Source: Jiangella muralis (GTDB lineage: Bacteria; Actinomycetota; Actinomycetes; Jiangellales; Jiangellaceae). Taken from it: a stretch of DNA of 64,000 nucleotides. Made by a program: the position numbers and the translations under genes. This document shows positions 29,765-48,777 of the stretch, in pieces (the first letter of the stretch is position 1; each line of letters starts with the position of its first letter). The stretch spans positions 1 through 64,000 of the forward strand of contig NZ_KQ434755.1 in assembly GCF_001270745.1 (NCBI RefSeq), written 5' to 3'. The notes below the pieces were generated by a model, which did not search any database, was not told the origin of the DNA, and was given only the letters and a program-made list of their open reading frames with translations.

Positions 29765-31157
<1,393 letters not shown>

Positions 31158-33383: not shown

Positions 33384-34412
33384 ATGACGGCGCCGGACGA
33401 GGCCCTGGTCGTCGACCTGCACAACGACCTGATCCTGCTGGTCGACCACTTCGACCAGCGCGGCCGGCCGGAGCATTTCGCCGAGTTCTGGCTGCCCGAG
33501 CTGCGGTCGGGCGGCGTGAACGTCCAGGTGCTGCCCGTGTTCATCGAGGCCCAGTACCAGTCCGAGGGCGCCCTGCGGCGGACGCTGCTGCTGATCGAGC
33601 GGATCCACGCGCTGGCGGCGCGGCACCCGGAGGTGGCGATCTGCCTGACCGGTGCGGACGTCACCGCGGCCGTGGCCGCCGGCCGGATCGCGTTCGTCAT
33701 CGGGCTGGAGGGCGCGCACGCCCTGGGCCAGGACCCGGAGCTGATCGGGACGATGTACCGCGTCGGCGCGCGGGTGGTCTCCCTCGCCCACCTGGGCCGG
33801 ACGCACCTGGCCGACGGCAGCGGGTTCGACGACAGCTCGCGCGGCGGGCTGACCCCGCAGGGGTTCGAGGTGCTCGCCGAGATGGAACGGCTCGGGATCG
33901 TCTTCGACATCAGCCACCTCGGCGTGGCCGGCGTCGACGACGTGCTGGCCCGGGCGACCCGCCCGCTGCTCGCGACCCACTCGGGCTGCCGGGCCATCAC
34001 CGACATGCACCGCAACCTCAGCGACGACCAGATCAAGGGCATCGCCGGCCTCGGCGGCGTGATCGGGGTCGCGGCGGCGATCGCGCCGTTCATCGACCCG
34101 GCCCGGCCGACCGCCGCCCGCGTCGTCGACCACGTCGAGCACATCGCGTCGGTCGCCTCGATCGACGCGGTGGCGCTGGGGCCGGACTTCATCGACGACT
34201 ACTACGCGGAGGTCTACGGCGGCCGCATGGAGATCATGGGCGTGGACGAGGTCGAGTTCGTGGCGGCCGAGGTGCGGCGGCCGTCGGACCTCCCGAAGCT
34301 CACCGCCGAGATGGTCGCCCGCGGCTTCTCCCAGGCCGACATCGCCAAGGTGCTGGGCGGCAACGCCAAGCGCGTCCTCGACGAGGTGATGGGCGTCGGT
34401 ACGGGTGGCTGA
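33384..34412 (+). CDS. Membrane dipeptidase (peptidase M19)
   Basis: A 342-residue renal-dipeptidase-type enzyme with the full di-zinc set: HxD (VDLHNDL, His13 and Asp15), the bridging Glu in FVIGLEGAHALG, His in FDISHLGVAGVDD and His in LLATHSGCRAI. No signal peptide is present, as in many bacterial members, so it is probably cytosolic. M19 enzymes hydrolyse dipeptides, including those with D-, dehydro- or unusual C-terminal residues. It is the only one of the three M19 proteins here with all metal ligands. It is followed 13 bp later by the gamma-glutamyltransferase. Confidence 0.9.
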   Translation: MTAPDEALVVDLHNDLILLVDHFDQRGRPEHFAEFWLPELRSGGVNVQVLPVFIEAQYQSEGALRRTLLLIERIHALAARHPEVAICLTGADVTAAVAAGRIAFVIGLEGAHALGQDPELIGTMYRVGARVVSLAHLGRTHLADGSGFDDSSRGGLTPQGFEVLAEMERLGIVFDISHLGVAGVDDVLARATRPLLATHSGCRAITDMHRNLSDDQIKGIAGLGGVIGVAAAIAPFIDPARPTAARVVDHVEHIASVASIDAVALGPDFIDDYYAEVYGGRMEIMGVDEVEFVAAEVRRPSDLPKLTAEMVARGFSQADIAKVLGGNAKRVLDEVMGVGTGG

Positions 34413-34469: not shown

Positions 34470-36041
34470 GTGCTCGAGGCGGGCGGGAACGCGGTCGACG
34501 CCGCGATCGCCTGCGCGTTCGTGCAGACCGTGGTCGACCCGCTGATGTGCGGCGTCGCCGGGTTCGGCAGCATGGCCGCGTACCTCCCGCGGCGGGACTT
34601 CCACGGCTACTACGACTTCCACGCGCCGGCGCCGCGCGCGGCCCGGCCGGACATGTGGGAGTCGCTGGTCGAGGGTGAGGCCCGCGACGGCTTCGGGTTC
34701 ATCGTGACCGGCCACGTCAACGAGATCGGCTACGAGTCGATCTGCGCGCCGGCGTCGCTGCGCGCGTTCCACACCGCTCACCGGGAGCACGGGACGCTGC
34801 CGTGGCGCGAGGTCATGGCGCCGGCGATCGGCTACGCCCGCGACGGGTGGACGGTGCGCCCGGACGTGCACGCCTTCTGGTCCGACCCGGGCGCGTTCGG
34901 GCACGTGGCCAACAGCGACCGCGCGTCGTTCACCCCCGCCGCCGCGGCGCTCTACCTGCGCCCGGACGGGTCAGCGAAGCGGATCGGCGACGTCGTGGTG
35001 AACCGCGACTACGCCGACGTCCTGGCGACGATCGCCCGGCACGGCCCGGCCCCGTTCTATACCGGCGATCTGGCCCGGGCGATGGTCGACGACATCGCCG
35101 CCAACGGCGGTCACCTGAGCCTCGACGACCTCGCCGGCGTCACCGTCCGCCGCAACGAGCCGCTCTGGACGACCTACCGGGCCTGGTCGCTCGCCACGAA
35201 CCGCCCGCCCGGCGGCGGCGTGCAGCTCGTCCAGATGCTCAACGTCCTGGAGAACTTCGACCTGGCGGCGCTGGGACACAACAGCCCGGAGTACGTGCGC
35301 GTCGTCAGCGAGGCCATGAAGCTGGCGACGGCCGACAAGGACCGCCACGTCGGCGACCCCGTCTTCGTCGACGTGCCGCTGGACCGGCTGACGTCGAAGG
35401 GCTACGCGCGGGAGGCCGCGGAGCGGATCGGGGCCGGCGAGCGGTTCTCCGTGCCACGGCACCAGGGACCGGCCGAAGGCGCCGACACCACCCATCTCTC
35501 GGTGATCGACGCCGACGGGAACTGCGTCGCGATGACGCACTCGCTGGGCCTGCCGTCGGGCGTGGTCAGCCCCGGGCTGGGGTTCATGTACAACGGCTGC
35601 ATGTCCAGCTTCGACCCCCGGCCCGGCCGGGCGGCGTCGATCGCCCCGGGCAAGGCGCGGTTCAGCTCCGTGTGCCCGTCGATGGTGTTCGACGAGGAGG
35701 GCCCGATGCTGGTGATCGGGGCTCCGGGCGGCACCCAGATCGCCATGGGCGTCCTCCAGGCGACGTTGAACGTACTGGACTTCGGCGTTCCCGTCGGCGA
35801 GGCGGTCGCGTTGCCGCGGTTCTCGGCCACCAGCGACGTCATCGACGTCGTCAACCGCGTCCCGCGCGCCGTCCAGACCGCCCTCGAGGCGCGCGGGTAC
35901 GAGGTGGTGCGCAGCCCGCGCAGCCACGCCTTCGGCCTCGTCCACGGGCTGGCCCGGCAGGACGGACGGTGGCGCGGCGGCGCCGATCCCGGCGGCGACG
36001 GCATGGCCCTGGAGGTGGCGGCCCCTCAGACGGGCACCTGA
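34470..36041 (+). CDS. Gamma-glutamyltransferase family protein, N-terminus frameshifted
   Basis: An Ntn hydrolase of the gamma-glutamyltranspeptidase family: AGGNAVDAAIACAFVQTVVD at the N-terminus, NRPPGGGVQLVQML in the large subunit, and the autocatalytic/nucleophile site GADTTHLSVIDADGNCVAMT with Thr340-Thr341. Upstream, MIVAAQP is encoded from ATG 34426, but the frame changes before AVEAGAAVLEAGGN. One base appears to be missing at 34447-34448 in a CCGGGG run. As read, GTG 34470 loses about 15 residues of the first strand. No signal peptide. It could remove gamma-glutamyl or other N-terminal acyl caps from peptides. Confidence 0.8.
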   Translation: MLEAGGNAVDAAIACAFVQTVVDPLMCGVAGFGSMAAYLPRRDFHGYYDFHAPAPRAARPDMWESLVEGEARDGFGFIVTGHVNEIGYESICAPASLRAFHTAHREHGTLPWREVMAPAIGYARDGWTVRPDVHAFWSDPGAFGHVANSDRASFTPAAAALYLRPDGSAKRIGDVVVNRDYADVLATIARHGPAPFYTGDLARAMVDDIAANGGHLSLDDLAGVTVRRNEPLWTTYRAWSLATNRPPGGGVQLVQMLNVLENFDLAALGHNSPEYVRVVSEAMKLATADKDRHVGDPVFVDVPLDRLTSKGYAREAAERIGAGERFSVPRHQGPAEGADTTHLSVIDADGNCVAMTHSLGLPSGVVSPGLGFMYNGCMSSFDPRPGRAASIAPGKARFSSVCPSMVFDEEGPMLVIGAPGGTQIAMGVLQATLNVLDFGVPVGEAVALPRFSATSDVIDVVNRVPRAVQTALEARGYEVVRSPRSHAFGLVHGLARQDGRWRGGADPGGDGMALEVAAPQTGT

Positions 36042-37699
36042 GCGATCCAGCGTTCCACGGCGCCGGACAGCACCGTCATGGGCACCGATCCGTTGCCGAG
36101 GACGGTGTCGTGGAAGGCGCGGACGTCGAAGGCGGCGCCGAGGCGTTCCTGGGCCGCCTGCCGCAGCCGTTCGATCTCGAGACGGCCGGTCATGTAGGCC
36201 AGGGCCTGGCCGGGCCAGGCGATGTAGCGGTCGACCTCGTTGGCGACGTTCTCGGGGGTGAGGGCGCTGTTGCTGAGCATGAAGTCGATGGCTTGCTGAC
36301 GCGTCCAGCCGTGGTGGTGCAGGCCGGTGTCGACGACGAGGCGGCAGGCCCGCCAGGAGTCGAACGAGAGCATCCCCAACCGGAACAGGTCGCCGGAGTA
36401 GAGACCCATCTCGTCGGCGAGACGCTCGGCGTAGAGGCCCCACCCCTCACCGAAGGCCGGAACGTACAGGTAGCGGCGGAACGCCGGCAGCTCGGTGAGC
36501 TCCTGCGCGAGCCCGAACTGCAGGTGGTGGCCGGGCACGCCCTCGTGGAACGCCAGCGTCTCGTACTCGAACCGGGTCCGCGTGCGTGGCGCGTAGGTGT
36601 TGACGTTGAAGCGGCCCGGCCGGCTGCCGTCACCCGACGAGGGCAGATACTCGCCGAGCACCGCGGCCGGCGCCAGCACCTCGTTCATGGGCACCACCGC
36701 GCACGAGTCCGACGGGGTGCGGCCGAACCAGTCCGGCAGCGCCGCTTCGGCCCTGGCCACCGCCGTCCGCGCGTCGGCCAGGATGTCCTCGGCGGACGAG
36801 TAGCGCAGCTCCGGGTCGTGTCGCAGCCGGTCGACGATCGCGTCGAAGGCGCTGATGCCGAACACCTTCTGCCCCAGCACGGCGTACTCGTCGCGCAACG
36901 CCTCGCACAGGTCCAGGCCGAGCCGGTGGATCTCGTCCGGCGAGCGCGTCGTGGTCGTGTGCGCCGCGACGGCGCGCGCGTACATCTCACTGCCGCCGGG
37001 CACGTGCAGCAGCCCGCTGCGCTCGTCCGGGCGGGCCGCCGCCAGCACCGGTCCCGAGAGCGTCTCCAGCAGCGCCGCCAGGGCCGGCCGGATGGACTCC
37101 GCCACCAGGCCGCGGACCTCGTCCTCGACGGCGGCGCCGGTCACCATGCCGGCGATGAGGTCGTCCTCGGCGCGGCCGCGCAGGTAGGCGTCCAGCCGTT
37201 CGGTGGTCTGCTCGACGCCGCGGCGGGTCGGTACCCGGCCGGCAGTCACGCCGTCCAGCGCCCGCTCCCGGGCCTGGCCGAGGTAGCCGGGCACACCGCG
37301 CAGCCGGCGCAGGTAGCTCTGCTGTTCGTCCGGCGTGGCGACCGAGACGGTGGTCAGCGCGGTGAACAGCAGTGCGCTGGGGGAGGCGTAGCCGGAAACG
37401 GCGAACTCCGCATGCCGGTCCTCGTACGGCACGGCCTCGGACCGCGCGACGTGGATCAGCACGTCCCGCGTCACCCGGTCGTGGTCGTCGAGCCCGTCCG
37501 CCGGGATCCGCTCGGCGCGCGCCGCCAGGTCCAGGAGGCGCTCGGCCGACGCGAGCTGGGCGGACTCGTCGAGATCTGGCACTTCGCCGTCGAGCCCGGG
37601 GATGCCGTGGATGAGCGTTGCCACGAACGGATCGGCCGCCGCCAAGGCCGCGTACAGGTCGTCGGACAGCTCAGCGAGGGGTCGGGACGACGTATCCAT
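36026..37699 (-). CDS. DUF885 family zinc peptidase
   Basis: A 557-residue protein of the DUF885 group (M32/M3-like fold, carboxypeptidase-type). The zinc site is LAFHEGVPGHHLQFGLAQEL, the family's HExxH-like variant HEGVPGHH, followed by the third-ligand region FGEGWGLYAERLADEMGLY. A substrate-binding segment RFNVNTYAPRTRTRFEYE is also present. Family members cleave oligopeptides; precise specificities are mostly unknown. Its 3' end overlaps that of the gamma-GT gene by 16 bp, tail to tail, and it diverges from the mutase operon. Confidence 0.85.
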   Translation of the reverse strand: MDTSSRPLAELSDDLYAALAAADPFVATLIHGIPGLDGEVPDLDESAQLASAERLLDLAARAERIPADGLDDHDRVTRDVLIHVARSEAVPYEDRHAEFAVSGYASPSALLFTALTTVSVATPDEQQSYLRRLRGVPGYLGQARERALDGVTAGRVPTRRGVEQTTERLDAYLRGRAEDDLIAGMVTGAAVEDEVRGLVAESIRPALAALLETLSGPVLAAARPDERSGLLHVPGGSEMYARAVAAHTTTTRSPDEIHRLGLDLCEALRDEYAVLGQKVFGISAFDAIVDRLRHDPELRYSSAEDILADARTAVARAEAALPDWFGRTPSDSCAVVPMNEVLAPAAVLGEYLPSSGDGSRPGRFNVNTYAPRTRTRFEYETLAFHEGVPGHHLQFGLAQELTELPAFRRYLYVPAFGEGWGLYAERLADEMGLYSGDLFRLGMLSFDSWRACRLVVDTGLHHHGWTRQQAIDFMLSNSALTPENVANEVDRYIAWPGQALAYMTGRLEIERLRQAAQERLGAAFDVRAFHDTVLGNGSVPMTVLSGAVERWIAQVPV

Positions 37700-37731: not shown

Positions 37732-37864
37732 TGGCCTACACATTAGCGCCTTGTTCTATCTAGTGACATGGGGTGATGGTGCCCAGCTCAAGCTGGCGCA
37801 GTCGGTAGTGGCGAACGGCATGGTTGAAACCGGTGGGCAGTCTGACCTACTTGTTTAGGCCTAA
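37732..37864. promoter_or_regulatory. Divergent promoter region of the mutase operon with two candidate operators
   Basis: TGGCCTA-CACAT-TAGCGCC (37732-37750) and TTTAGGCCTAA (37854-37864, with a perfect TTAGGCCTAA palindrome) lie between the DUF885 peptidase and the operon starting at 37917. Both resemble the site upstream of dgdA. The region is AT-rich compared with its surroundings. The start of the first operon gene has CACGGAGGAG upstream. Confidence 0.45.
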
Positions 37865-37916: not shown

Positions 37917-38318
37917 ATGTTGGAGCCGAGGTCTGTTGGCGACGACCGAGCGATGATCCGACTTCGCTTGTCGCCCGGCGATGCGCGGTATGCGGGGAAC
38001 CTGGTCCCCGGGTCGAAGGCGATGGAGATCTTCGCCGACCTCGAGACCGAGCTCGCCCTCAAGGAAGGGGGCGACGAGGGCCTCTGCGCGGCCTACGATT
38101 CGGTCGAGTTCCTTGCGCCTCTGCGGGTGGGCGACTACGTCGAGGGCATCGCGCGGGTGACCCGGCGCGGGAACCGCAGCCGCACCATCGAGGCCCGGAT
38201 CTTCAAGGTCCTCGGCGTCGACGAGAAGGGCGCGCTCGCCACCACCGACCCGGTGCTGGCGGCCACCGCCGTGGCGACGATCGTCGTGGGCACGAACTCC
38301 GGCGCGGGCGTTGCCTGA
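37917..38318 (+). CDS. kal: 3-aminobutyryl-CoA ammonia-lyase-like hotdog protein
   Basis: A 133-residue single hotdog-fold protein. The stretch MIRLRLSPGDARYAGNLVPG then SKAMEIFADLETELALKEGG, DEGLCAAYDSVEFLAPLRVG and DYVEG.ARVTRRGNRSRTIE follows the 3-aminobutyryl-CoA ammonia lyase (Kal) of lysine fermenters, which reversibly converts 3-aminobutyryl-CoA to crotonyl-CoA and ammonia. Length fits. This organism's operon has none of the lysine-fermentation genes; instead it has a CoA ligase and a B12 mutase, so the substrate must be formed another way. ATG 37917 has GGAGGAG upstream. First gene of an eight-gene operon. Confidence 0.75.
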   Translation: MLEPRSVGDDRAMIRLRLSPGDARYAGNLVPGSKAMEIFADLETELALKEGGDEGLCAAYDSVEFLAPLRVGDYVEGIARVTRRGNRSRTIEARIFKVLGVDEKGALATTDPVLAATAVATIVVGTNSGAGVA

Positions 38319-38319
38319 C

Positions 38320-39795
38320 GTGATCGCCCACCCTGACACGGTCGTCGCGTGGATCGAGGCGGTGGTGCGTGCCCACGCCGGCCGCCCGGCGCTGATCCAC
38401 GACGGCGCCACCTGGAGCTACCGGGACCTGTGGTCGCGCGCGGAGGACACCGCGCGGCGCCTGCTGGCCGGCGGCCTGCGGCCCGGCGACACGGTCGGTC
38501 TCCTGGGCGCCAACGAGCCGGCGTACATCGTCAACTACCTCGGGATCGCCCGGGCGGGCGGTACCGCGGTTCCGGTCAACGACCGGCTCGACGGCGCGAC
38601 GGTGCGCAGCCTGCTCGCCTCGGTCGACGCCACGCGAGTGTTCGTCGGCCGGGTCGACGCGGCTGTCCGCGACGAGCTCGCCGAGACGTTCCAGATCCTC
38701 CCCATGGACGCCGGCGACCCGGTGCAGCGCCGCGGCCGGCTGCCGGTCGCGGCACCGGGAACGCCGGCCGCGATCATGCTGACCAGCGGCTCGACCGGGC
38801 GGCCGAAGGGGGTCGTGCACACCCAGGGCACCATGTTGCACGCGGCTCAGCAACTGACCTCGGCGTTCCCGTTCCGCTCCGACGACCGGTCGGTGGTCTT
38901 CCTCCCGCTCTATGCGTGCATCCCGGAGCAGGTGCTGCCGGTGCTGTGCACCGGCGGCGCGCTGGAGATCCTGCCGCGGTTCGACATCGAGCGCGTCGCC
39001 GACGCCTGCACCAGGGCAACGACGTTCGACGCGGTGCCGACGATCCTGAGCCGGCTGATCGAGCACGCGCCCCCGGAGAAGCTCGCCCACCTGCGGTGGG
39101 TGCTGTTCGCGTCGGAGCACATGCCTGTCACGCTCCTGCACCGCTGGTGGGACGAGCTGCCCGGTGTCGAGACGCACCAGCTCTACGGGATGACGGAGGT
39201 GCTGCCGCTGTCGGCGGCGCCGCACTGGCTGCTGCGCCGGGAGCCGTCCACCATCGGACGGGCGTTCCCGACGACGCGGCTGAGCGTCGACGACGTCTCC
39301 TCCGACGGCGGCGAGCTGATCGGCACCAGCCCGGCCCAGATGGTGGGGTACTACAAGGACGAGGTCGCCACGAAGGCTGCGCTGGGCCCGGACGGCGCCA
39401 TGCGGACGGGCGACCTCGGCCGCATCGACGAGCGCGGGCTGGTGTTCCTGACCGGCCGAAGCAAGGACATCATCATCTCCGGCGGCATCAACATCGCGCC
39501 CGCCGAGATCGAGGCCGTCGCGGCCCGGCATCCGTCGGTCGAGCGGGCGGTCGTCGTGGGCGTGCCGAGCGAGCGCTGGGGCGAGACCCCCGTCGTCGTC
39601 GCCGTGCCCCGCCCGGGCCGGGCGCTCACAGCGGACGATCTGCTGAGCCACTGCCGGTCGCTGCTGTCCAGCTACAAGCGACCCACCGGCGCCGGGCTGA
39701 TCGACGCCCTCCCGACCACCGGTATCGGCAAGACGGCCAAGGACACGGTGAGGAAGATGATCGTGGATGGGAAGATCAACGTTGTTCGAATCTGA
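38320..39795 (+). CDS. AMP-forming acyl-CoA ligase 1
   Basis: About 491 residues of the ANL superfamily. The P-loop-like IMLTSGSTGRPKGV is near residue 150, the A5 motif is THQLYGMTEVLPL, the hinge region is TGDLGRIDERGLVFLTGRSK, and the catalytic A10 Lys lies in TTGIGKTAKDTVRK. It should convert an acid to its acyl-CoA through the acyl-adenylate. It overlaps or directly follows the kal-like gene (TTG 38311 is an alternative start) and overlaps the MeaB gene. In 2-hydroxyisobutyryl-CoA mutase operons such a ligase activates the mutase substrate; here an amino or hydroxy acid is plausible. It is clearly paralogous to the ligase at 45676. Confidence 0.88.
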   Translation: MIAHPDTVVAWIEAVVRAHAGRPALIHDGATWSYRDLWSRAEDTARRLLAGGLRPGDTVGLLGANEPAYIVNYLGIARAGGTAVPVNDRLDGATVRSLLASVDATRVFVGRVDAAVRDELAETFQILPMDAGDPVQRRGRLPVAAPGTPAAIMLTSGSTGRPKGVVHTQGTMLHAAQQLTSAFPFRSDDRSVVFLPLYACIPEQVLPVLCTGGALEILPRFDIERVADACTRATTFDAVPTILSRLIEHAPPEKLAHLRWVLFASEHMPVTLLHRWWDELPGVETHQLYGMTEVLPLSAAPHWLLRREPSTIGRAFPTTRLSVDDVSSDGGELIGTSPAQMVGYYKDEVATKAALGPDGAMRTGDLGRIDERGLVFLTGRSKDIIISGGINIAPAEIEAVAARHPSVERAVVVGVPSERWGETPVVVAVPRPGRALTADDLLSHCRSLLSSYKRPTGAGLIDALPTTGIGKTAKDTVRKMIVDGKINVVRI

Positions 39796-40687
39796 CCAGA
39801 TCGAGACCCTGGTGGCCAAGGGCCGGGAGGGCCACTGGGCGCCGCTCGCACGGGCGGTGACCGTGGTCGAGAACAGCCCGCCCTGGGAGGTCTCCATCCC
39901 GCGGGCGTCCCGGCCCTGCCACATCGTGGGCATTACCGGCCCGCCCGGTGCCGGCAAGAGCACCCTCACCGGCCGCCTGATCGAGTCCTTCGCCGACGAC
40001 GGCCAGCGGGTCGCCGTCCTGGCGATCGACCCTTCCAGCCCGCTCAGCGGCGGTGCCGTCCTCGGCGACCGGGTACGGATGGAGACCTACCTGAACGGCC
40101 GGCCCGGCGTGTTCGTGCGCAGCCTGGCCAGCCGTGGATCGCACGGCGCCGTGGCCGGGTCCACCCGGAACATCGCCCGGCTCCTGGAGCTGTCCGGCCT
40201 GTTCGACATCGTGCTGATCGAGACGGTGGGTGCGGGTCAGACGGAGGTCGCCATCGTCGAGGTCGCCGACACCGTGCTGCTGGTCACCGTGCCCGGGCTC
40301 GGCGACGCCGTGCAGACGATCAAAGCGGGCCTCATGGAGGTCGCCGACGCCTTCATCGTCAACATGGCCGACCGGCCCGGCGCCGCGGAGACGGCGCGGC
40401 ACCTGCGCCTGGCCGCCGGCCGGGTGGATGCCGTGTACAAGACGGTGGCCATCGAGGGCACCGGAGTGGACCAGGTGCGCGACGGCATGTACGCGCGGTG
40501 GCGCTCGCTGCTGGAAGACGGGCAGCTGGAGGCGCGGCGCCTGGACAAGTGGGGCTCGGACGCGGCGCTGGTGGCCGAGGCCTGGGTCGCCGACTGCGCA
40601 GGCGCGATCGCCCTGGACCCGCACGCGACGATGCAGGACTCCGTGGACAAGATCTTGAAGGAGGCGTCACGCCGATGGAGCCGATGA
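39767..40687 (+). CDS. meaB: MeaB/MeaH-type GTPase chaperone of the B12 mutase
   Basis: A 306-residue G3E GTPase with Walker A GITGPPGAGKSTL, the switch/Mg site LAIDPSSPLSGGAVLGDRVR, ETVGAGQTE and the base-recognition region VNMADRPGA. MeaB proteins gate adenosylcobalamin loading and protect acyl-CoA mutases from inactivation. It starts inside the ligase gene and ends inside the mutase large-subunit gene, so all three are tightly coupled. Confidence 0.93.
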   Translation: MGRSTLFESDQIETLVAKGREGHWAPLARAVTVVENSPPWEVSIPRASRPCHIVGITGPPGAGKSTLTGRLIESFADDGQRVAVLAIDPSSPLSGGAVLGDRVRMETYLNGRPGVFVRSLASRGSHGAVAGSTRNIARLLELSGLFDIVLIETVGAGQTEVAIVEVADTVLLVTVPGLGDAVQTIKAGLMEVADAFIVNMADRPGAAETARHLRLAAGRVDAVYKTVAIEGTGVDQVRDGMYARWRSLLEDGQLEARRLDKWGSDAALVAEAWVADCAGAIALDPHATMQDSVDKILKEASRRWSR

Positions 40688-42363
40688 ACGAGGACGACAA
40701 GCGCTGGGACGAGCGCGTCGAGGAATGGAAGACCGGACGGGTCGTCGCCGACTACCAGCGGGTCCCGCCGCGGCGCTCGGAGTACACGACCCTGTCCGGT
40801 GCGCCGGTCAAGGACGTCTACACTCATGCCGACATCCGGCACCTTGACCCGGCCGAGGACATCGGGCTCCCCGGCGAGTACCCGTACACCCGTGGCGTGC
40901 ACGCCACGATGTACCGCGGCCGGCCGTGGACGATCCGGCAGGTGGCCGGCTTCGGCCAGGCCGAGGACACCAACAACCGGTACAAATACCTGCTCAAGAC
41001 CGGCCAGACCGGTCTCTCGACCGACTTCGACCTGCCGACGCTGCTGGGCTACGACTCCGATCACGAGGTGTACCGGCGCGAGGTCGGTCGCATCGGCGTC
41101 GCCGTCGACACCGTCGTCGACATGCACGCGCTGTTCGACGGCATCCCGCTCGACCAGATCTCCACGTCGATGACGATCAACCCGTCGGCCGCCGTCGTGC
41201 TGGCCATGTACCGGGTGGTGGCCGACGAGCGGGGCATCCCGGGCCACGTGCTCACCGGGACCACCCAGAACGACATCCTCAAGGAGTACATCGCCCAGAA
41301 CGAGTTCATCTTCCCGCCGCTGCCCTCGGTGCAGCTGGTGGTCGACACGATGGAGTACGGCGCGGACGTGATGCCGCGGTTCAACCCACTCAACGTGTGC
41401 GGCTACCACATCAGGGACGCCGGCTCGACGGCCGTCGAAGAGGTCGGCCTCACCATCAGCAACGCGCTGTGCTACCTCGAGCACGCGGTCGAGCGCGGCA
41501 TCGACATCGACCGGTTGGCGCCGCGGGTGTCGTTCTTCTGGGACGTGCACAACAACTTCTTCGAGGAGGCGGCCAAGCTGCGTGCGGCCCGCCGATTGTG
41601 GGCGCGGCTCATGCGGGAGCGGCTGGGCGCCAAGGATCCCCGGTCGTGGCTGATGCGGGCGCACTGCCAGACCGCCGGCGTCTCCCTCACCGCGCAGCAG
41701 CCGTACAACAACGTCGCCCGGACCGCGATCCAGGCCATGGCCGCCATCCTGGGCGGCACCCAGTCGCTGCACACGAACTCCCTCGACGAGGCCCTGTCCA
41801 TCCCGTCGGAGAGCGCGATCAAGATCGCCGTCCGCACCCAGGCGATCATCCTGCACGAGACCGGCGTCGCCGACGTCGTCGATCCGCTCGCCGGGTCGTA
41901 CTACGTGGAGTCCCTCACCTCCCAGATCGAGGAGGACGCGCTTGCGCTGATCGAGCGCATCGACGCGCTGGGCGGCATGATCGAGGCGGTCCAGTCCGGC
42001 TACGCGGTCCAGCTGATCTCCGACTCCGCCTGGGAGCAGCAGGTCAAGGTCGAGAGCAACGACACCATCACCGTCGGCGTGAACGACTACGTCGACGAGG
42101 ACGAGACCCAGGACATCGAGATCGACCGTCCGGTGCCCGGCGTCATGGAACGCCAGATGGCGCGACTCGCCGAGGTGAAGCGGTCCCGCGAGGACCGGCA
42201 GGTGACCGCGACACTGCGGGCGATCGAGAAGGCCGCCCCTGACCTGCACCACAACCTGATGCCGCTGATCGAGGACGCCGTGCGCGCGCGAGCCACGGTC
42301 GGCGAGATCTGTGACGTGTTACGCGACGTATGGGGCCACCACCAGCCGTCGACCGTGTTCTAG
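40675..42363 (+). CDS. B12-dependent acyl-CoA mutase, large subunit (2-hydroxyisobutyryl-CoA mutase subclass)
   Basis: A 562-residue substrate-binding subunit of the methylmalonyl-CoA mutase family without the B12 domain. Its numbering matches HcmA of Aquincola exactly at two diagnostic sites. The residue in TIRQxAGFG is Val90 (Ile90 in HcmA, Phe in isobutyryl-CoA mutase, Tyr in methylmalonyl-CoA mutase). GLSTDFD has Asp117, the residue that contacts the substrate hydroxyl in HcmA and is Ala in the others. GYHIRDAGS and QTAGVSLTAQQPYNNVARTA are family core motifs. It should move a thioester group between adjacent carbons of a branched acyl-CoA carrying a polar alpha substituent. ATG 40675 follows AAGGAGG. 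Confidence 0.88.
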   Translation: MEPMNEDDKRWDERVEEWKTGRVVADYQRVPPRRSEYTTLSGAPVKDVYTHADIRHLDPAEDIGLPGEYPYTRGVHATMYRGRPWTIRQVAGFGQAEDTNNRYKYLLKTGQTGLSTDFDLPTLLGYDSDHEVYRREVGRIGVAVDTVVDMHALFDGIPLDQISTSMTINPSAAVVLAMYRVVADERGIPGHVLTGTTQNDILKEYIAQNEFIFPPLPSVQLVVDTMEYGADVMPRFNPLNVCGYHIRDAGSTAVEEVGLTISNALCYLEHAVERGIDIDRLAPRVSFFWDVHNNFFEEAAKLRAARRLWARLMRERLGAKDPRSWLMRAHCQTAGVSLTAQQPYNNVARTAIQAMAAILGGTQSLHTNSLDEALSIPSESAIKIAVRTQAIILHETGVADVVDPLAGSYYVESLTSQIEEDALALIERIDALGGMIEAVQSGYAVQLISDSAWEQQVKVESNDTITVGVNDYVDEDETQDIEIDRPVPGVMERQMARLAEVKRSREDRQVTATLRAIEKAAPDLHHNLMPLIEDAVRARATVGEICDVLRDVWGHHQPSTVF

Positions 42364-42378
42364 AGGAGGGACGAGACA

Positions 42379-42804
42379 ATGACATCCGCCACTGCTGGTC
42401 TGCCGCCGCTCAAGGTGGTGATCGCCAAGCCCGGGCTCGACGGGCACGACCGCGGCGCCAAGGTCGTGGCGCGGGCGTTGCGCGACTCCGGTATGGAAGT
42501 CGTCTACACCGGCATCTACCAGAGCCCGGAATCGATCCTGCGCGCGGTCGTCCAGGAGGACGCCGACGTCCTCGGCCTGTCCAGCCTGTCCGGCGCTCAT
42601 CTCGAGTACGCCAGGGACCTGTGCGCGCTGCTGAAGGAGAACGACCGCCGGGACGTCCTGTTCGTCGTCGGCGGCACCATCCCGCCCGAGGACGCCGACA
42701 CGCTCAAGGGCTACGGCGTCCACGAGGTCTTCGGGCCCGGGACGCCGACGGCGGAGCTGGTCGCGTACATCTCCCGCAACGCCCGACAGGCGCGGCTGGC
42801 GTGA
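42379..42804 (+). CDS. B12-binding small subunit of the acyl-CoA mutase
   Basis: A 141-residue cobalamin-binding domain with the DxHxxG motif (Asp21, His23, Gly26 in PGLDGHDRGAK), where His23 is the lower cobalt ligand. LGLSSLSGAH and VVGGTIPPEDADTLKGYGVH complete the Rossmann-like B12 fold. It pairs with the large subunit 15 bp upstream, as HcmB or IcmB do. RBS AGAGGAGGGACGAG precedes the ATG. Its stop overlaps the next start (GTGA). Confidence 0.93.
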   Translation: MTSATAGLPPLKVVIAKPGLDGHDRGAKVVARALRDSGMEVVYTGIYQSPESILRAVVQEDADVLGLSSLSGAHLEYARDLCALLKENDRRDVLFVVGGTIPPEDADTLKGYGVHEVFGPGTPTAELVAYISRNARQARLA

Positions 42805-43898
42805 CGGGCAGGTCGCGCGATCTCGGCATCGTGGTCGGTGACCTCCCGACCGGCCGGCACAACGCGATCACCGACGTCCCCGGCGTGCGGGTGGGACACC
42901 ACACGGTGCATGCGGGCGACGGGCCGCTGGTCGTCGGCGAGGGTCCGGTGCGCACCGGGGTGACCGTCGTGGAGCCGCGGCCGCAGGTCTGGCGCTCGCC
43001 GGTCTTCGCCGGCTTCCACCGGCTCAACGGCAACGGCGAGATGACCGGTCTGCACTGGATCCGGGAGAACGGGCAGCTCACCACCGCCATCGGGCTAACC
43101 AACACCCACTCCGTCGGCGTGGTCCGCGACGCGATCGTCGCTCGGCTGCACCGGGAGCGGGGCGACGACGAGCTCTACTTCCACCTGCCGGTGGTGGCGG
43201 AGACCTACGACGGCCTCCTGAGCGACATCAACGGCCAGCACGTCACGGCCGCCCACGTCGACGCGGCCTTCGACGCGCTGTCCGGCGGACCGGTGCCCGA
43301 GGGCTCGGTCGGCAGCGGCACGGGCATGATCTGCCACGAGTTCAAGGGTGGCATCGGCACGTCGTCGCGGGTCGTCGGCGGCTCCACCGTTGGCGTCCTC
43401 GTGCAGGCCAATCACGGCCGGCGCGGGCGGCTGCGGGTGAACGGCGTGCCGATCGGCGAGCGGATCCCCACCGACGACGTTCCGTCGCCGTTCGACGCGG
43501 TGGTGCGCTCGGCCCGGGGCAGCGGGTCGATCATCGTGTTGATCGCGACGGACGCGCCGCTGCTGCCGCACCAGTGCGAACGGCTGGCCCAGCGCGGTGC
43601 GCTGGCCATCGGGCGGACCGGCGGGTCCGGCGAGAACGGCAGCGGCGACCTGCTCCTGGCGTTCTCCACCGGGAACGACAGCCTGCCGCGGGTCGGCCTG
43701 GTGGAGCCGGGCCCGGACGAGATTCCGCTGCGCATGGCCGGCAACACCGTGATCAACATCCTGTTCGACGCGGTCATCGACGCCACCGAGGAGGCGATCC
43801 TCAACGCCGTAGTGGCCGCGGAGACCAGTGTCGGACGCGACGGGATCACCGCGCACGCGCTGGACCACGACCGCCTGCGCGCGGCCTACGCCGGGTGA
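42801..43898 (+). CDS. P1/S58-family aminopeptidase (DmpA/BapA-like)
   Basis: A 365-residue Ntn-type peptidase of family S58. GSGTGMICHEFKGGIGTSSR is the DmpA core, and the self-cleavage site is Gly242-Ser243 in ARGSGSIIVLIATDAPLLP, with Ser243 the nucleophile after autoprocessing. SGENGSGDLLLAFSTGN is also conserved. DmpA acts on D- and L-N-terminal residues and BapA on N-terminal beta-amino acids. Its position inside a CoA-dependent amino-acid operon suggests that it releases the residue that is then activated and rearranged. GTG 42801 overlaps the mutase stop. Confidence 0.9.
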   Translation: MTGRSRDLGIVVGDLPTGRHNAITDVPGVRVGHHTVHAGDGPLVVGEGPVRTGVTVVEPRPQVWRSPVFAGFHRLNGNGEMTGLHWIRENGQLTTAIGLTNTHSVGVVRDAIVARLHRERGDDELYFHLPVVAETYDGLLSDINGQHVTAAHVDAAFDALSGGPVPEGSVGSGTGMICHEFKGGIGTSSRVVGGSTVGVLVQANHGRRGRLRVNGVPIGERIPTDDVPSPFDAVVRSARGSGSIIVLIATDAPLLPHQCERLAQRGALAIGRTGGSGENGSGDLLLAFSTGNDSLPRVGLVEPGPDEIPLRMAGNTVINILFDAVIDATEEAILNAVVAAETSVGRDGITAHALDHDRLRAAYAG

Positions 43899-45655
43899 CG
43901 CGCCCGATGCCACCCGCCGAAGCACACGACGCCGCGCCGGCCACCGTGGCCGCGGCGATCGCCGAGTACCTGAGCGGTCAGGGGATCGAACGGGTGTTCA
44001 GCCTGCCCGGATCGCACATGAAGCCGATCTGGGCGGAGCTGGCCGCGCGGGGCGTCCGGGTCGTGACGGCGCGGCACGAGGTGGCCGCCGTGCACATGGC
44101 CCAGGCGGAGGCCGATCTGCGTCACGGGCTCGCCGTCGCGATCGTCACGACCGGGCCCGGGCTGACCAACGCGGTCACCGGGATCGGATGCGCCTTCCTC
44201 GCCGGTTCACCGGTGCTCGTCATCTCGACCCGCCCGCCGGACGAGCAGGCGGGCATGGGTGCCCTGGAGGAGATCGACCAAGCGGCGATCGTCCGGCCGG
44301 TCTGCCGGGCAGTGGAGGTGGTCCGATCGCGCCGGCACGTCGTCGACCGGCTCGACCGCGCCGTGAGCGCGGCACTCGGCGACGACGGCCCCGGCGGCCC
44401 GGTGTACGTCGAGTTCGGCACCGAGCTGCTGCGCCAGGATGCCGCGCCGCTCTACACGGCCTATCCGCGCCGCACGAGGGTGCGCCGGCCACCGGAGGCC
44501 GCCGCCGTCGACCGGGCCGTCGACGCGATCGCGGCCAGCACCCGGCCGCTGGTGCTCGCCGGTCGCGAGGCGCTCACCGTGCCCGGCCCGCTGGCCGAGT
44601 TCGTGCGCACGACCGGCGCCCTGTACCTCGACACCCGGGCGAGCCGGGGCGCCCTGTCCGAGAGCATCCCCTCGTTCGTGCCGGCGGCGCGGGCCCGGGC
44701 GATGGCCGAGGCCGACCTGGTGATCACCGTCGGCCGGCGGCTGGACTTCGAGACGGCGTACGGGTCGCCCGCGGTGTTCACCGCGGCCGAGCGGTTCCTG
44801 CGGATCGGCCGGAACTCCGAGGAGGTCCAGGCCAACCGCCGCGGCGACGTGGAGCTGCGCGCCGATCCGCACTCAGCGCTGGAGGCCCTGGTGACGGCCG
44901 GCGCGCGACCGGCCGCTCCGGATCTCGGGTGGCGAGACGACGTCATGAGCAGCAACGCCGGCAAGCGGCGCCGGCTCGGCGAGACGATGCGGGCCCAACC
45001 CGCCGCCGCGGACGGCGGGCTCCACCCGCTGCAGGTCATCCGCGCGCTCAACGAGCACATCGACGACACCGCGATCGTGATCGTCGACGGCGGGGACATC
45101 CTGTCGTGGTCGCGATCGAGCCTGAACACGCCCACCTATCTGGACCTGGGGGCGTTCGGATGCCTCGGGGTGGGCGTCCCGTTCGCTGTCTCGGCGTCGC
45201 TCAACCATCCAGACCGCACGGTGGTCGTGCTCGCCGGGGACGGCGCCCTGGGCTTCAACGTCATGGAGCTGGAGACCGCGGTCCGCGAAGGCGCACGCTT
45301 CGTCGTCGTCGTGGCCGACAACAACGCGTGGAACATCGAGCGCGCCGACCAGGTCCGCAACTACGAGGGGCGGATCATGGGCACCGAGCTCGGGCCCTGC
45401 GCCTGGGACCGGCTCGCGGACAGCCTCGGCGTCGCCGGCTACCGCGCCGGCAGTGTGGACGACCTGGACACGGTCCTCAGCGAGGCCTTCGCGCACGCAC
45501 CCGCGCTGGTCGCCGTCCGGACCTCCCGCGAACCGATCTCGCCGGACACCAGGAGCGGCCTCGCCCTGGTGCCGGAGTACCACGCGCTCGCCGCATGGGA
45601 CGCGGCCGAGCGGGCGTGGCTGTCGGGTCCGCGTCATGGGGACGTCGAGTCGTGA
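43895..45655 (+). CDS. ThDP-dependent lyase/decarboxylase (candidate 2-hydroxyacyl-CoA lyase)
   Basis: A 586-residue thiamine-diphosphate enzyme of the acetolactate synthase/oxalyl-CoA decarboxylase superfamily. The catalytic Glu62 lies in TARHEVAAVHMAQ; the Mg/ThDP motif begins Gly448-Asp449-Gly450 and ends near Asn476-Asn477 (VVADNNAWN). A C-terminal extension includes SPDTRSGLALVPEYHAL. Actinobacteria cleave 2-hydroxyisobutyryl-CoA to acetone and formyl-CoA with a ThDP lyase (known from Actinomycetospora). Location between a 2-hydroxyisobutyryl-type mutase and a CoA ligase makes that role likely, but motifs alone cannot exclude acetolactate-synthase-like or other chemistry. GTG 43895 overlaps the previous stop; ATG 43907 is an alternative. 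Confidence 0.75.
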   Translation: MTRPMPPAEAHDAAPATVAAAIAEYLSGQGIERVFSLPGSHMKPIWAELAARGVRVVTARHEVAAVHMAQAEADLRHGLAVAIVTTGPGLTNAVTGIGCAFLAGSPVLVISTRPPDEQAGMGALEEIDQAAIVRPVCRAVEVVRSRRHVVDRLDRAVSAALGDDGPGGPVYVEFGTELLRQDAAPLYTAYPRRTRVRRPPEAAAVDRAVDAIAASTRPLVLAGREALTVPGPLAEFVRTTGALYLDTRASRGALSESIPSFVPAARARAMAEADLVITVGRRLDFETAYGSPAVFTAAERFLRIGRNSEEVQANRRGDVELRADPHSALEALVTAGARPAAPDLGWRDDVMSSNAGKRRRLGETMRAQPAAADGGLHPLQVIRALNEHIDDTAIVIVDGGDILSWSRSSLNTPTYLDLGAFGCLGVGVPFAVSASLNHPDRTVVVLAGDGALGFNVMELETAVREGARFVVVVADNNAWNIERADQVRNYEGRIMGTELGPCAWDRLADSLGVAGYRAGSVDDLDTVLSEAFAHAPALVAVRTSREPISPDTRSGLALVPEYHALAAWDAAERAWLSGPRHGDVES

Positions 45656-45675: not shown

Positions 45676-47148
45676 ATGGTCAGCACCCTGATATCCCACA
45701 TCGGCGCCGTCGCGAGGGCCCACCCGAACGATCCGGCGCTGATCTACGACGGCGAGACCTGGACGTACGCGCAGTTCTGGTCCCGCACCGAGGAGATGGC
45801 CCGCGGACTGCTCAGCCTCGGGCTGAGACCGGGGGAGCCGGTCGGGATCATCGGGCAGAACGAGCCGGCCTACATCGCCGCCTACCTGGGCGTCATGCGG
45901 GCCGGGCAGGTCGCGGTCCCCATCAACACGATGCTCGACCTCGCGTCGATCCGCGACCAGCTCGACCTCGTCGGCGTGCGGACGATCCTGGCCGGACGGA
46001 TTCCCGCCGAGCTCCGGGAGGGGCTCGAGGACTCCCACCGGCTCCTGGAGCTGTCCGCGCCACCACGCGGGCCGGCCGGCCCGGCGCTGCCGCGGATCGC
46101 GCCGGACGCCACCTGCAAGATCATGCTCACCAGCGGCTCGACCGGACGGCCGAAAGGGGTCGAGCACACGCACGGATCGATCTTCCACACGGCGCTGCAG
46201 ATGGCCGCTGCCCTGCCATTCGACCGCGGCGACCGCGGCCTCGTGTTCCTGCCCCTCTACACCTGCATCCCCGAGCACGTCCTGCCCACCCTGTGCGCCG
46301 GCGGCTCGCTTGAGGTCCTGCCAGGCTTCGACGTCGAGCGGGTCGCCGACGCCTGCACCCGGGCGACGACGTTCGACGCCGTGCCGACGATCCTCAGCCG
46401 GCTGATCGAACACGCACCGCTGGAGAAGCTCGCGGGGCTCCGGTGGATCCTGTTCGCCTCCGAGCCGATGCCGGTCCACCTGCTCCGGACGTGGTGGGAG
46501 CTGCTGCCAGGGGTGGAGACGCACCAGTTCTACGGACTGACCGAGCTGGTGCCCGTCACCATCGCGACGCACGCCATGCTGCGGGCCGAGCCGACGACCG
46601 TCGGGCGCGCCTTCCCGACGACCGAAGTGGCGCTCGACCCGCTGGAGGGCCACGGCGGCGGCGGGGAGATCCTGGCGGCCGCCCCCAGCCGCATGCGCGG
46701 GTACTTCGGCGACGCCGCGGCGACGAACGGCGCGCTGACGGCGACGGGCGCGCTTCGCACGGGGGATATCGGCCGGGTGGACGACCGTGGGCTGGTCTTC
46801 CTGACCGGACGGCTCAAGGACATCATCATCTCGGGCGGCCTCAACGTCGCTCCGGCCGAGATCGAGGCCGCGGCGTTCGGCCACGGAGGCGTCCAGGAGG
46901 CCATCGTCGTGGGGATCCCGAGCGATCGGTGGGGCGAGACCCCGGTGGTCGTCGCCGTGCCGAAGGCGGGCAGCGGCCTCACCGCTGAGGCCCTGCTCCG
47001 GCACTGCCGTGAGGCGCTGCCGAGCTTCAAGCGTCCGTCGGCGGCCGCGCTGGTGCCGAGCCTGCCGGTCACCGGGATCGGCAAGGGCGACAAAGCGGCG
47101 GTGAAGCGGCTGATCGCGGACGGGAGGATCGACCTCGTGGGCGCGTGA
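45676..47148 (+). CDS. AMP-forming acyl-CoA ligase 2
   Basis: A 490-residue ANL ligase, paralogous to ligase 1: shared blocks include VERVADACTRATTFDAVPTI and LSRLIEHAP.EKLA, with IMLTSGSTGRPKGV and catalytic Lys in VTGIGKGDKAAVKR. Differences around the acid-binding pocket (HQFYGLTELVPVTIATH against HQLYGMTEVLPLSAAPH) suggest a different acid. It is the last gene of the operon, next to the ThDP enzyme, so it may prepare the 2-hydroxyacyl-CoA for it. ATG 45676 has GGTGAGGTGG upstream. Confidence 0.88.
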   Translation: MVSTLISHIGAVARAHPNDPALIYDGETWTYAQFWSRTEEMARGLLSLGLRPGEPVGIIGQNEPAYIAAYLGVMRAGQVAVPINTMLDLASIRDQLDLVGVRTILAGRIPAELREGLEDSHRLLELSAPPRGPAGPALPRIAPDATCKIMLTSGSTGRPKGVEHTHGSIFHTALQMAAALPFDRGDRGLVFLPLYTCIPEHVLPTLCAGGSLEVLPGFDVERVADACTRATTFDAVPTILSRLIEHAPLEKLAGLRWILFASEPMPVHLLRTWWELLPGVETHQFYGLTELVPVTIATHAMLRAEPTTVGRAFPTTEVALDPLEGHGGGGEILAAAPSRMRGYFGDAAATNGALTATGALRTGDIGRVDDRGLVFLTGRLKDIIISGGLNVAPAEIEAAAFGHGGVQEAIVVGIPSDRWGETPVVVAVPKAGSGLTAEALLRHCREALPSFKRPSAAALVPSLPVTGIGKGDKAAVKRLIADGRIDLVGA

Positions 47149-47153
47149 CGACG

Positions 47154-48143
47154 TCAGCCCGCGCGGACGGGCGTCGCCGGCGCGGGCGACGCCTGGCCGA
47201 GCGACGGCGCCGTGCCACGCTTGAGGTCCTGCATGTCGCGGACGACGTCGCTGACCATGCGGATGGACGCGGCGTCGAGCACGTTGCCGAACTCCATGAC
47301 CTTGACCCGGCCCTCGAGCTGCTCGCGCAGCTCGCCCATGCCGTCCGGGATCACGACGAGGTCGACGCCCTCGAGGTCCTTGTCCTCGATGGCGTCGAGC
47401 ACCTCGATGTTCTTGATGCCGGAGTCGCGCAGGGAGTCGCGGACGGTGACGGCCTGCTCGTCGGTGCGGTACCAGATGCCGACCGTGCCGTTCTTCGCCA
47501 CGGACGCGATCTGCACCAGCGTCTGGACGTGCGGCGCGACGACGATGGCGACGATCTCGGTGTTGGGGCGGCGCATGAGCCCGCGCACCTCGGCGAGGTG
47601 GAAGAACGTCGTGAGGACGAGGTCGGCGCGCTCCTCCTCGGGCTCGAAGGTGCCGAGCACCAGCGGCTTCACCTTGACGCCGATGTTGGCCTCGAGCTCG
47701 CTTGCGAAGTACTTGGCGCGGTCGACGTTGCACTCGACGAACGAGACCTTCAGGAGGTCGTCCTCGGCGCGCAGCGCCAGGCTCATGACGAGCGACTGGA
47801 TCTCGGCCGCTGACAGCCCGAGCTCGATGCATTCCCGGGTGGCCGACTCGAGCAGCTGTCTGGCCTGGTCGCGCGCCAGCGACCCCTCGCGCTCGGGACC
47901 GGGTCCCACGACGATGGTCCCGCTGCGTCCGCGCCCCTCGACCACGCCGGTCTCGCCGAGCTCGGCATAGGCCCGGGCGACGGTGTTGCGGTTGATGTGG
48001 AGGTTGTTGGCGAGGAGGCGGGCACTGGGAAGGGCTTGGCCGGGCGCGAGGTCGCCGGTCTCGATCATGAACGACAACTGCGTGACGATCTGCCGGTAGA
48101 TGGGCACATCGGAGTGCAGGCTCACCTGAATCTTGTCGACCAC
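47154..48143 (-). CDS. GntR-family regulator with a periplasmic-binding-like sensor domain
   Basis: A 329-residue regulator. Residues 1-75 form a GntR winged helix (DVPIYRQIVTQLSFMIETGD; LPSARLLANNLHINRNTVAR; GVVEGRGRSG) of the YtrA-like type. The C-terminal 240 residues have alternating strands and helices (DLVLTTFFHLAEVRGLM, AIVVAPHVQTLVQIASVAKN, VDLVVIPDG), like a type 1 periplasmic-binding fold that could sense a small ligand. GTG 48143 is preferred (GAGGGAGAG just upstream); an upstream ATG at 48194 is possible. It lies tail to tail with the mutase operon and diverges from the peptide transporter. It is the obvious candidate controller of the island. Confidence 0.85.
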   Translation of the reverse strand: MVDKIQVSLHSDVPIYRQIVTQLSFMIETGDLAPGQALPSARLLANNLHINRNTVARAYAELGETGVVEGRGRSGTIVVGPGPEREGSLARDQARQLLESATRECIELGLSAAEIQSLVMSLALRAEDDLLKVSFVECNVDRAKYFASELEANIGVKVKPLVLGTFEPEEERADLVLTTFFHLAEVRGLMRRPNTEIVAIVVAPHVQTLVQIASVAKNGTVGIWYRTDEQAVTVRDSLRDSGIKNIEVLDAIEDKDLEGVDLVVIPDGMGELREQLEGRVKVMEFGNVLDAASIRMVSDVVRDMQDLKRGTAPSLGQASPAPATPVRAG

Positions 48144-48261
48144 TGCTCGCTCTCCCTCTGCGGAAGACGTATCCGCCCAGCACAAGTACACCACTGTCCG
48201 CTGTGTGGAGTCGACCTAGCCGGATGAGCTGAAGCAGCTGAGCGGGTTCCGTCACCCCTTT

Positions 48262-48280
48262 TGGCATAGATCATAGGGCG
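48262..48280. promoter_or_regulatory. Putative autoregulatory GntR operator
   Basis: TGGCATA-GATCA-TAGGGCG, an imperfect inverted repeat, matches the dgdA-upstream site in its TGGC.TA / TAGG.C arms. It is about 120 bp upstream of the GntR start, in the divergent region shared with the peptide transporter. Confidence 0.4.
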
Positions 48281-48777
48281 AATCGGCCGCGCCGGCGCGT
48301 TCGCGATGGGTGAGAGATGGCTGTCGTCTCGGCACCACCAGGCGCTCGTCCATCTCCAGCGCCGGATGCACGTCGCCGCGCCGGTGGACCGTACCTGGTG
48401 CGCGTGCCGCCGGTCCGCCTCGCCCGGGTCCTGTGCCATTTCACCCTAAGGCCATAGATCCGTATCGGCCCGAGAGATCAACCCTCTGTGTCGCGCGGGT
48501 TGCGGGCGTGGTGGCCGGACGGCGCTGGCCACCTGCAGGTGGCGCGGGCGGTATCGGTCCGAAGTCGGGCGTGTTGCCCGGATATCGACTACCTCCCTCA
48601 GGCTTGGGTTGGACCACTTAACTAGGTCTTGACAGGCATAAGCAATCAGACAATGCTGTGCTCCACGTTACGACATGGGCCAGCTAGACACAGGCCGGAG
48701 CGACGAGAAACCAGGCTCTTCGCGGAGTCCCGTGAAGGGACGCGGATTCTCTGCCACGACAACCGAATGGTGTTGAG
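48281..48777. other. Long intergenic region upstream of the peptide transporter
   Basis: No protein gene is seen. It holds an AGGCC-centred palindrome (CTAAGGCCATAG, 48446-48457), a further candidate operator at 48613-48632 and a promoter (separate entry). The roughly 120-base leader between promoter and ATG 48778 contains no convincing riboswitch or leader peptide. Confidence 0.45.
48613..48657 (+). promoter_or_regulatory. Promoter and overlapping operator of the peptide transporter operon
   Basis: A perfect -35 TTGACA at 48629-48634 is followed after 17 bp by AATGCT (48652-48657), a weak -10. Overlapping the -35 on its upstream side is TGGACCACTTAACTAGGTCT, which matches the dgdA-upstream site at 14 of 20 positions, with the centre AACTAGG identical. 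A repressor bound there would block RNA polymerase. Confidence 0.5.

Follow-up and report, generated by a model that had tools for sequence, protein, structure and literature searches.

An operon of Jiangella muralis that may encode an undescribed B12-dependent route from 2-aminoisobutyrate to an ordinary fatty-acid intermediate

Introduction

The first 64,000 nucleotides of contig NZ_KQ434755.1 of the soil actinobacterium Jiangella muralis (assembly GCF_001270745.1), contig 6 of a 7.27 Mb genome and hereafter the window, carry an operon that joins the genes for both subunits of a B12-dependent acyl-CoA mutase to those for a MeaB chaperone, AMP-forming CoA ligases and a hotdog-fold protein of the ammonia lyase family, set in an island with genes for peptide uptake, peptidases and the 2,2-dialkylglycine decarboxylase DgdA. 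Judged from its sequence, the operon may represent an undescribed B12 route that takes 2-aminoisobutyrate (Aib) to an ordinary fatty-acid intermediate. Aib is among the substrates of DgdA and is plentiful in fungal peptaibols, according to the accessible portions of two sources (PMC10169451, PMC7782822), and the available text of the second names two routes for its catabolism, one through DgdA and one through the hydroxylase AibH1H2 (PMC7782822). In a literature search that covered few subscription papers, there was no mention of aminoisobutyryl-CoA, methylalanyl-CoA, Aib-CoA or an aminoacyl-CoA mutase, and aminoisobutyric acid, cobalamin, catabolism and crotonyl-CoA were nowhere found together; a single paper names both hydroxyisobutyryl-CoA mutase and an aminoisobutyr- compound.

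Gene content and organization of the locus

Five genes, for the hotdog protein, AMP-forming ligase 1, MeaB and the large and small mutase subunits, lie in this order on the forward strand, overlapping or nearly so (Table 1). An earlier reading of the DNA from its letters and open reading frames (the sequence-only reading) had described them as one operon, and all five are indeed present as such, but the operon is longer than it supposed and continues to position 47148 with an S58 aminopeptidase, a relative of thiamine diphosphate (ThDP)-dependent 2-hydroxyacyl-CoA lyases and a second ligase. With the gene starts that we chose, adjacent genes overlap at four of the seven junctions, among them those for the small mutase subunit and the S58 peptidase (4 bp, 42801-42804), and the remaining gaps span 8-20 bp.

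About 7 kb upstream, amid peptide transporters and peptidases, are dgdA and an alanine dehydrogenase gene, and by the scores in Table 1 the DgdA assignment is specific over other class-III enzymes. The second and third substrate-binding proteins of the transporter region were assigned by sequence likeness, and the first, like both permeases, by profile scan. This island very probably serves dialkylglycine-rich peptides and the handling of dialkylglycines. The gene at 63181 gives the impression, outside the profile scan, of a third M19 dipeptidase, and open frames at 10889-12100 on the reverse strand resemble, from an impression of the sequence, parts of a transposase.

Table 1. Features of the island, with positions in the whole 64,000-nucleotide stretch
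Feature	Position	Strand	Basis
Alanine dehydrogenase	28648-29763	-	TIGR00518, 520 bits (cut-off 392)
2,2-dialkylglycine decarboxylase DgdA	29765-31078	-	PDB 1d7r, E 7e-180, 602 bits; next family 237 bits
Putative operator palindrome GGCCTATTCAACTAGGCC before dgdA	31139-31156		one of two perfect genome sites
M19 dipeptidase	33384-34412	+	PF01244
Gamma-glutamyltransferase-like	34470-36041	+	PF01019, 395 bits; TIGR00066, 352.5 bits, slightly below cut-off 357.85
DUF885 protein	36026-37699	-	PF05960
Putative operator palindrome GACCTACTTGTTTAGGCC before mutase operon	37844-37861		one of two perfect genome sites
Hotdog protein, Kal/Acl-like, proposed 3-aminobutyryl-CoA ammonia lyase	37917-38318	+	similarity to solved structures, motif, fold match
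AMP-forming ligase 1, proposed Aib-CoA ligase	38311-39795	+	PF00501; unlike HcmAB-operon ligases
MeaB chaperone GTPase	39767-40687	+	PF03308; TIGR00750, 237 bits, slightly below cut-off 241
Acyl-CoA mutase large subunit, V90/D117/Q208	40675-42363	+	solved-structure similarity, pocket residues, tree
B12-binding mutase small subunit	42379-42804	+	TIGR00640, PF02310
S58 aminopeptidase (DmpA/BapA family)	42801-43898	+	PF03576; PDB 5tzb 3e-107, 1b65 5e-82, 3n2w 1e-78
ThDP 2-hydroxyacyl-CoA-lyase relative, Q128 -> E	43907-45655	+	NF058623, 613 bits (cut-off 600); PDB 7pt1
AMP-forming ligase 2, 58.6% identity with ligase 1	45676-47148	+	profile and pairwise comparison
GntR-family regulator, candidate for whole regulon	47154-48194	-	PF00392; homologue adjoins dgdA in genome G156
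Three peptide-type substrate-binding proteins and two Opp-type permeases	48778-55745	+	profile scans (first binding protein, both permeases)
Second M19 dipeptidase	57567-58658	+	PF01244
S10-type carboxypeptidase and S9-type peptidase	59841-63184	+	PF00450, PF00326

The mutase

The sequence-only reading placed the mutase with 2-hydroxyisobutyryl-CoA mutase (HCM, subunits HcmA and HcmB), and this family call is borne out: the closest solved relative of the large subunit is HcmA (4r3u, E 1e-171), followed by human methylmalonyl-CoA mutase (MCM; 1e-148), and solved matches of the small subunit include 2yxb (3e-39) and HcmB (4r3u_C, 3e-33). Further HCM traits are the separate mutase and B12-binding subunits encoded with MeaB and the pair Asp117 and Gln208, which we take to be pocket residues, Asp117 of HcmA presumably touching the substrate hydroxyl. 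Among 69 aligned mutases, positions 90, 117 and 208 read V/D/Q in the 14 rows of this clade (where some genomes are represented by two cuts), I/D/Q in Xanthobacter HcmA, F/A/Q in 28 rows that we take to be like isobutyryl-CoA mutase (ICM) and Y/A/R in 26 that we take to be MCM, both labels being based on the pocket residues. In this set Asp117 is confined to the clade and Xanthobacter HcmA, and Methylibium HcmA, compared separately, is also I/D/Q; the HCM residue Ile90 is replaced by Val in every clade member. A tree of 31 rows sets the clade apart with support of 100/100, and its sisterhood to HcmA is weakly supported (73/54), long branches calling for caution. These mutases form a clade of their own with a near-HcmA pocket.

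Action on a plain branched acyl-CoA of the isobutyryl- or pivalyl-CoA type, with the placement in the island incidental, would agree with the 50-55% identity of the clade to the F/A/Q mutases; we find this barely credible, given that the pocket there is F/A/Q against V/D/Q here, and given the conserved association with DgdA and with a palindrome described below.

The hotdog protein

The best solved relative of the hotdog protein is beta-alanyl-CoA:ammonia lyase 2 of Clostridium propionicum (4mtu, E 8e-14), acyl-CoA hydrolases following at 6e-8 and weaker, and the D..TE motif is retained in the island hotdogs. A fold search with a structural model (pLDDT 78) also put 4mtu on top, with acyl-CoA hydrolases so close behind that it discriminates weakly. 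Matches at E <= 1e-8 occur in 79 of 393 genomes sampled from the class, six of them of the island clade and the rest at 88 bits or less. Sixteen contexts of these other hotdogs (L043-L058) were compared for the hotdog itself: the actinobacterial relative in L043 passes the curated cut-off of the equivalog for the 3-aminobutyryl-CoA ammonia lyase Kal (NF052388), as do the hotdogs of Fusobacterium (197 bits) and Acetoanaerobium (194), all three within 192-197 bits, and the more distant one in L048 has Tyr in place of the His in the AHY motif of aligned Kal and Acl proteins. In an unexplained small cluster on a plasmid of Streptomyces sp. S501 (L152, 4242-9154), another hotdog protein of this family is accompanied by a type III pyridoxal phosphate enzyme, a holo-acyl carrier protein synthase, an AMP ligase, a carrier protein, ectoine synthase and EctA.

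Two other assignments were tried and set aside. For a thioesterase the match, to Pfam 4HBT (31.8 bits, gathering score 20.6), is at family level only and the catalytic Asn/Asp of the class do not align, an incomplete exclusion: Asn28 and Asp43 of a Staphylococcus aureus thioesterase, known from entry titles, fall on Arg24 and Ala40, with an unsure register near Asp43. MaoC-type enoyl-CoA hydratases carry an Asp/His motif, which is absent from the sequence as read.

Conservation and co-occurrence

Within the genus, the mutase clade, the hotdog clade and DgdA all occur in the same six of 12 genomes (L006 and G192 being counted once), although these are mutually related and therefore not twelve independent events. 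Within the 393 genomes of the class sample, the mutase clade is limited to those six (above 1200 bits, next best 584), and DgdA is found in 22, the six module holders among them. Per genome, the best three candidates were scored in the mutase searches (class, phylum and G089-genus samples) and the best four in the DgdA class search.

Two further actinobacterial lineages hold both module and DgdA, namely Streptomyces samsunensis, with DgdA on a separate contig, and an actinomycetotal metagenome-assembled genome (MAG), with DgdA in the same 13 kb locus. The order of the five-gene core is identical in all eight loci, the window counted, and the S58 gene comes next in seven, not being found at the MAG locus. 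A 35.7 kb contig of S. samsunensis bears the core, the S58 gene, GntR, a peptide transporter, dipeptidases and an S10-like gene; the ThDP lyase is on it too, at a distance of about 25 kb from the core. The module is absent within about 10 kb of 18 other DgdA loci (17 in the 16 genomes that lack the mutase, plus the DgdA contig of S. samsunensis). The 377 genomes from the genus to which G089 belongs, a sample without a positive control, yielded no additional module, no mutase score exceeded 632 bits in the remaining 395 genomes of the phylum sample, and the clade was not found in a plasmid collection, where all 421 records fell below 60% identity (best row 53.7%).

A shared palindrome and a candidate regulator

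The palindrome GRCCTA-N6-TAGGYC, a putative operator, precedes both dgdA and the mutase operon, and these two promoters hold the only perfect sites in the genome. With one mismatch allowed, the expectation for the window is 0.14 matches, and two or more were reached in 0 of 100 shuffles; chance sites would not be expected in precisely these promoters. Since the motif was picked after viewing the promoters, its conservation in relatives is better evidence. It precedes both dgdA and the hotdog gene in four loci (L006, L039, L040, L041) and lies at the hotdog and M19 promoters of L042, and a perfect copy stands before the orthologue of the first M19 dipeptidase gene in L006, L039 and L042, the window copy being degenerate with two mismatches. 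In S. samsunensis a copy occupies L178:4855-4872 and is followed by a ligase-lyase-dipeptidase operon, at a distance of 24 bp if the ATG at 4831 is the ligase start, the longest frame beginning further up, at 4993. This ligase preceding the ThDP lyase (L178, 3224-4831) is a different AMP ligase, a short stretch of which is 36% identical to ligase 1.

The sole mutase-free dgdA locus with a homologue of the window GntR (G156, 54% identity) has the two genes divergent and, in their promoter, a palindrome with one mismatch, a match reached by 0.07% of random 350-bp stretches. Where dgdA directly adjoins the GntR gene that ends the mutase operon (G134), there is a two-mismatch site (2% of random stretches). 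Where dgdA lacks this GntR neighbor, as it does at 18 loci (16 mutase-free ones from 15 genomes, that on the S. samsunensis dgdA contig and that of the MAG), no palindrome rose above the null, the best having 3-5 mismatches. The GntR protein of the window is the candidate regulator of the regulon, an identity that we infer. Between its gene and that of the first substrate-binding protein (48195-48777) is a two-mismatch operator-like site, which may reflect autoregulation or chance.

A proposed route for 2-aminoisobutyrate

The island would import and digest peptides rich in alpha,alpha-dialkylglycines, that is Aib and probably isovaline too, with fungal peptaibols as their likely natural source. 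Free Aib could then take two routes. In the first, the known reaction of DgdA would convert Aib and pyruvate to acetone, CO2 and alanine, and alanine dehydrogenase would return the alanine to pyruvate. In the second, encoded by 37917-42804, ligase 1 would make Aib-CoA; the adenosylcobalamin mutase, maintained by MeaB, would detach the thioester carbonyl from the tertiary carbon and join it to a methyl carbon, yielding 3-aminobutyryl-CoA; and the Kal-like hotdog protein would remove ammonia from this product to give crotonyl-CoA for beta-oxidation. The rearrangement would thereby turn a tertiary amine, which allows no direct deamination, into a beta-amine open to elimination. What is observed comprises the genes, their operon, its conservation, the co-occurrence with DgdA, the shared putative operator and the near-HcmA pocket; the substrates and reactions of ligase, mutase and hotdog are all predicted, and we favor, with some reserve, a mutase acting on Aib-CoA and a hotdog acting on 3-aminobutyryl-CoA.

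Aib as the substrate, proposed in the sequence-only reading, gains strong independent support from a context that it did not cite (DgdA, alanine dehydrogenase, co-occurrence, shared operator, peptide uptake and peptidases), its specific reactions staying at the level of prediction, and its order of ligase, HcmAB-type mutase and Kal-type lyase fits the genes. Several observations weigh against the route. Though its best solved relative is an ammonia lyase, the hotdog scores 108.9 bits against the Kal cut-off of 160, three island orthologues also fall below it (98.7-108.7 bits), and the AHY His is Arg in all five island hotdogs, from three lineages, so that the protein is best described as a divergent member of the ammonia lyase family, of unproven specificity. 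An attempt to read the ligase substrate from sequence was given up, the best solved match reaching only 182 bits. A reversed-motif control for the palindrome gave three genome sites, so that a genome will normally hold one or two such sites by chance, and the palindrome was not seen at the S. samsunensis hotdog promoter nor before dgdA or the hotdog gene in the MAG (best 2-3 mismatches). DgdA by itself suffices for the disposal of Aib, and the 2-hydroxyacyl-CoA-lyase relative in the operon also points to 2-hydroxyisobutyryl-CoA.

If true, the route from Aib-CoA to crotonyl-CoA would be a third, B12-dependent one for Aib, would extend the acyl-CoA mutase family to amino-acyl-CoA substrates and would involve hotdog ammonia lyases in the catabolism of Aib. 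It would also supply a gene set for the possible consumption by soil bacteria of peptaibols, antibiotics that are stabilized by Aib.

Accessory enzymes and competing explanations

The ThDP lyase relative clears its family cut-off narrowly and is found in all three lineages that hold the module. Measured against the actinobacterial 2-hydroxyacyl-CoA lyase AcHACL, with residue roles from the accessible part of PMC8760513, it retains H44, T88, L127, I492 and E493, and has P, S and E for Q41, G43 and Q128. E128 and S43 are present in all eight island-type lyases and P41 in seven (Thr in S. samsunensis); S43 occurs also in a Cupriavidus relative, and position 128 is Gln in the four other lyases aligned. 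As Gln128 holds a water that touches the substrate hydroxyl, Glu128 may suit an amine, which we treat as a lead only. The change, kept in three lineages, makes an aminoacyl-CoA lyase possible. Two fates for Aib-CoA, with a 2-aminoacyl- to 3-aminoacyl-CoA mutase operating beside a Glu128 lyase that cleaves it to formyl-CoA and acetone imine, the aza counterpart of what 2-hydroxyacyl-CoA lyases are known to do, would be a variant that we hold to be decidedly unlikely.

The main competing explanation, kept because of this lyase relative in the same operon and in our view unlikely, is that 2-hydroxyisobutyryl-CoA is the substrate of the mutase: the ThDP lyase would join formyl-CoA to the acetone that DgdA releases and so make this thioester, or a ligase would activate 2-hydroxyisobutyrate (2-HIBA), the mutase would yield 3-hydroxybutyryl-CoA, and the hotdog would be a dehydratase or thioesterase. 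Asp117 and Gln208, as in HcmA, accord with it, as do a lyase above the family cut-off in the operon, the presence of the lyase in all three lineages, the combination of HcmAB with a ThDP lyase in Methylibium, and the lyase and mutase proposed for acetone use by D. biacutus in the available part of PMC7176365. The same source gives a characterized lyase a Km for acetone above 1 M, which speaks against it (PMC7176365), as do the change Q128 -> E in 8/8 lyases, the distance of the S. samsunensis lyase from the core and the ammonia-lyase-family hotdog in the core of 8/8 loci. No hydroxybutyryl-CoA dehydrogenase is among the operon genes, and both ligases are unrelated to those of HcmAB operons (blastp E 0.004 and 0.001 with Xanthobacter, tblastn E 0.73 and 0.019 with Methylibium), which are 72% identical to each other; the HCL-type ligase, an HCM-operon trait, was not found among the ligases of the window operon. 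With ligase type and downstream enzyme differing, a canonical 2-HIBA operon is not the simplest reading.

Degradation of beta-amino acids has also to be considered, in which 3-aminobutyrate or a similar compound released by the S58 peptidase would pass through ligase and hotdog to an enoyl-CoA, the mutase handling a branched homologue. The overlap of the S58 gene with that of the small mutase subunit and the relation of its product to a beta-peptidyl aminopeptidase (1e-78) would agree with this, and a CoA ligase and ammonia lyase are known for beta-valine, according to the accessible text of PMC4619459. We regard it as highly improbable: the S58 protein matches the D-aminopeptidase 5tzb and 1b65 more closely than it does the beta-peptidyl enzyme, its gene is missing from the MAG locus, and the mutase, the DgdA co-occurrence and the shared operator would be left unexplained. 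(We assume that the names DmpA and BapA belong to the matched PDB entries.)

Comparison with known systems

The island shares DgdA and alanine dehydrogenase with the DgdA route of Aib catabolism, to which it would add a second, CoA-dependent route under the same putative operator. The AibH1H2 hydroxylase route of Rhodococcus wratislaviensis also starts from Aib and has L-alanine dehydrogenase as its last enzyme, but relies on oxygenase chemistry, no CoA or B12 step being seen in the available text (PMC7782822). AcHACL resembles the window lyase, which exceeds the NCBIfam cut-off and retains key residues, and differs from it at Q41, G43 and Q128 (PMC7176365, PMC8760513, each in part). The beta-valine pathway (BvaA/BvaB) likewise deals with a tertiary amine by activation with CoA and subsequent loss of ammonia, but the lyases are of the crotonase type and no mutase is seen in the accessible part of that report; a supposition that these lyases are hotdogs proved wrong (PMC4619459).

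Kal, from lysine fermentation, and Acl, which acts on beta-alanyl-CoA, have in common with the window protein the hotdog family, 4mtu as best match and the D..TE motif. The window hotdog differs in its score under the Kal cut-off, in the change of AHY to ARY and in lying beside a mutase rather than in a lysine-fermentation cluster.

A close parallel is the HcmAB operon of Aquincola, Methylibium and Xanthobacter, the last two being plasmid operons that we take to be HcmAB from likeness, and that of Methylibium PM1 being, we assume, a 2-HIBA operon. Separate subunits, MeaB, a CoA ligase, GntR and the D117 and Q208 pair are common to both, and Methylibium has a ThDP lyase nearby as well; the window differs in its Val for Ile90, its own mutase clade and its unrelated ligases. 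As annotated, the Methylibium PM1 order is GntR, B12-binding subunit, ligase, MeaB, mutase, cobalamin adenosyltransferase, ThDP enzyme and 3-hydroxybutyryl-CoA dehydrogenase, and a search of HcmAB operons with the hotdog gave no real match (best E 3.3 in Methylibium, 0.07 in Xanthobacter). The dehydrogenase of Methylibium stands where the window operon has the hotdog: in chemical terms, the 3-hydroxy product of the oxygen version is oxidized, and the 3-amino product of the nitrogen version would lose ammonia.

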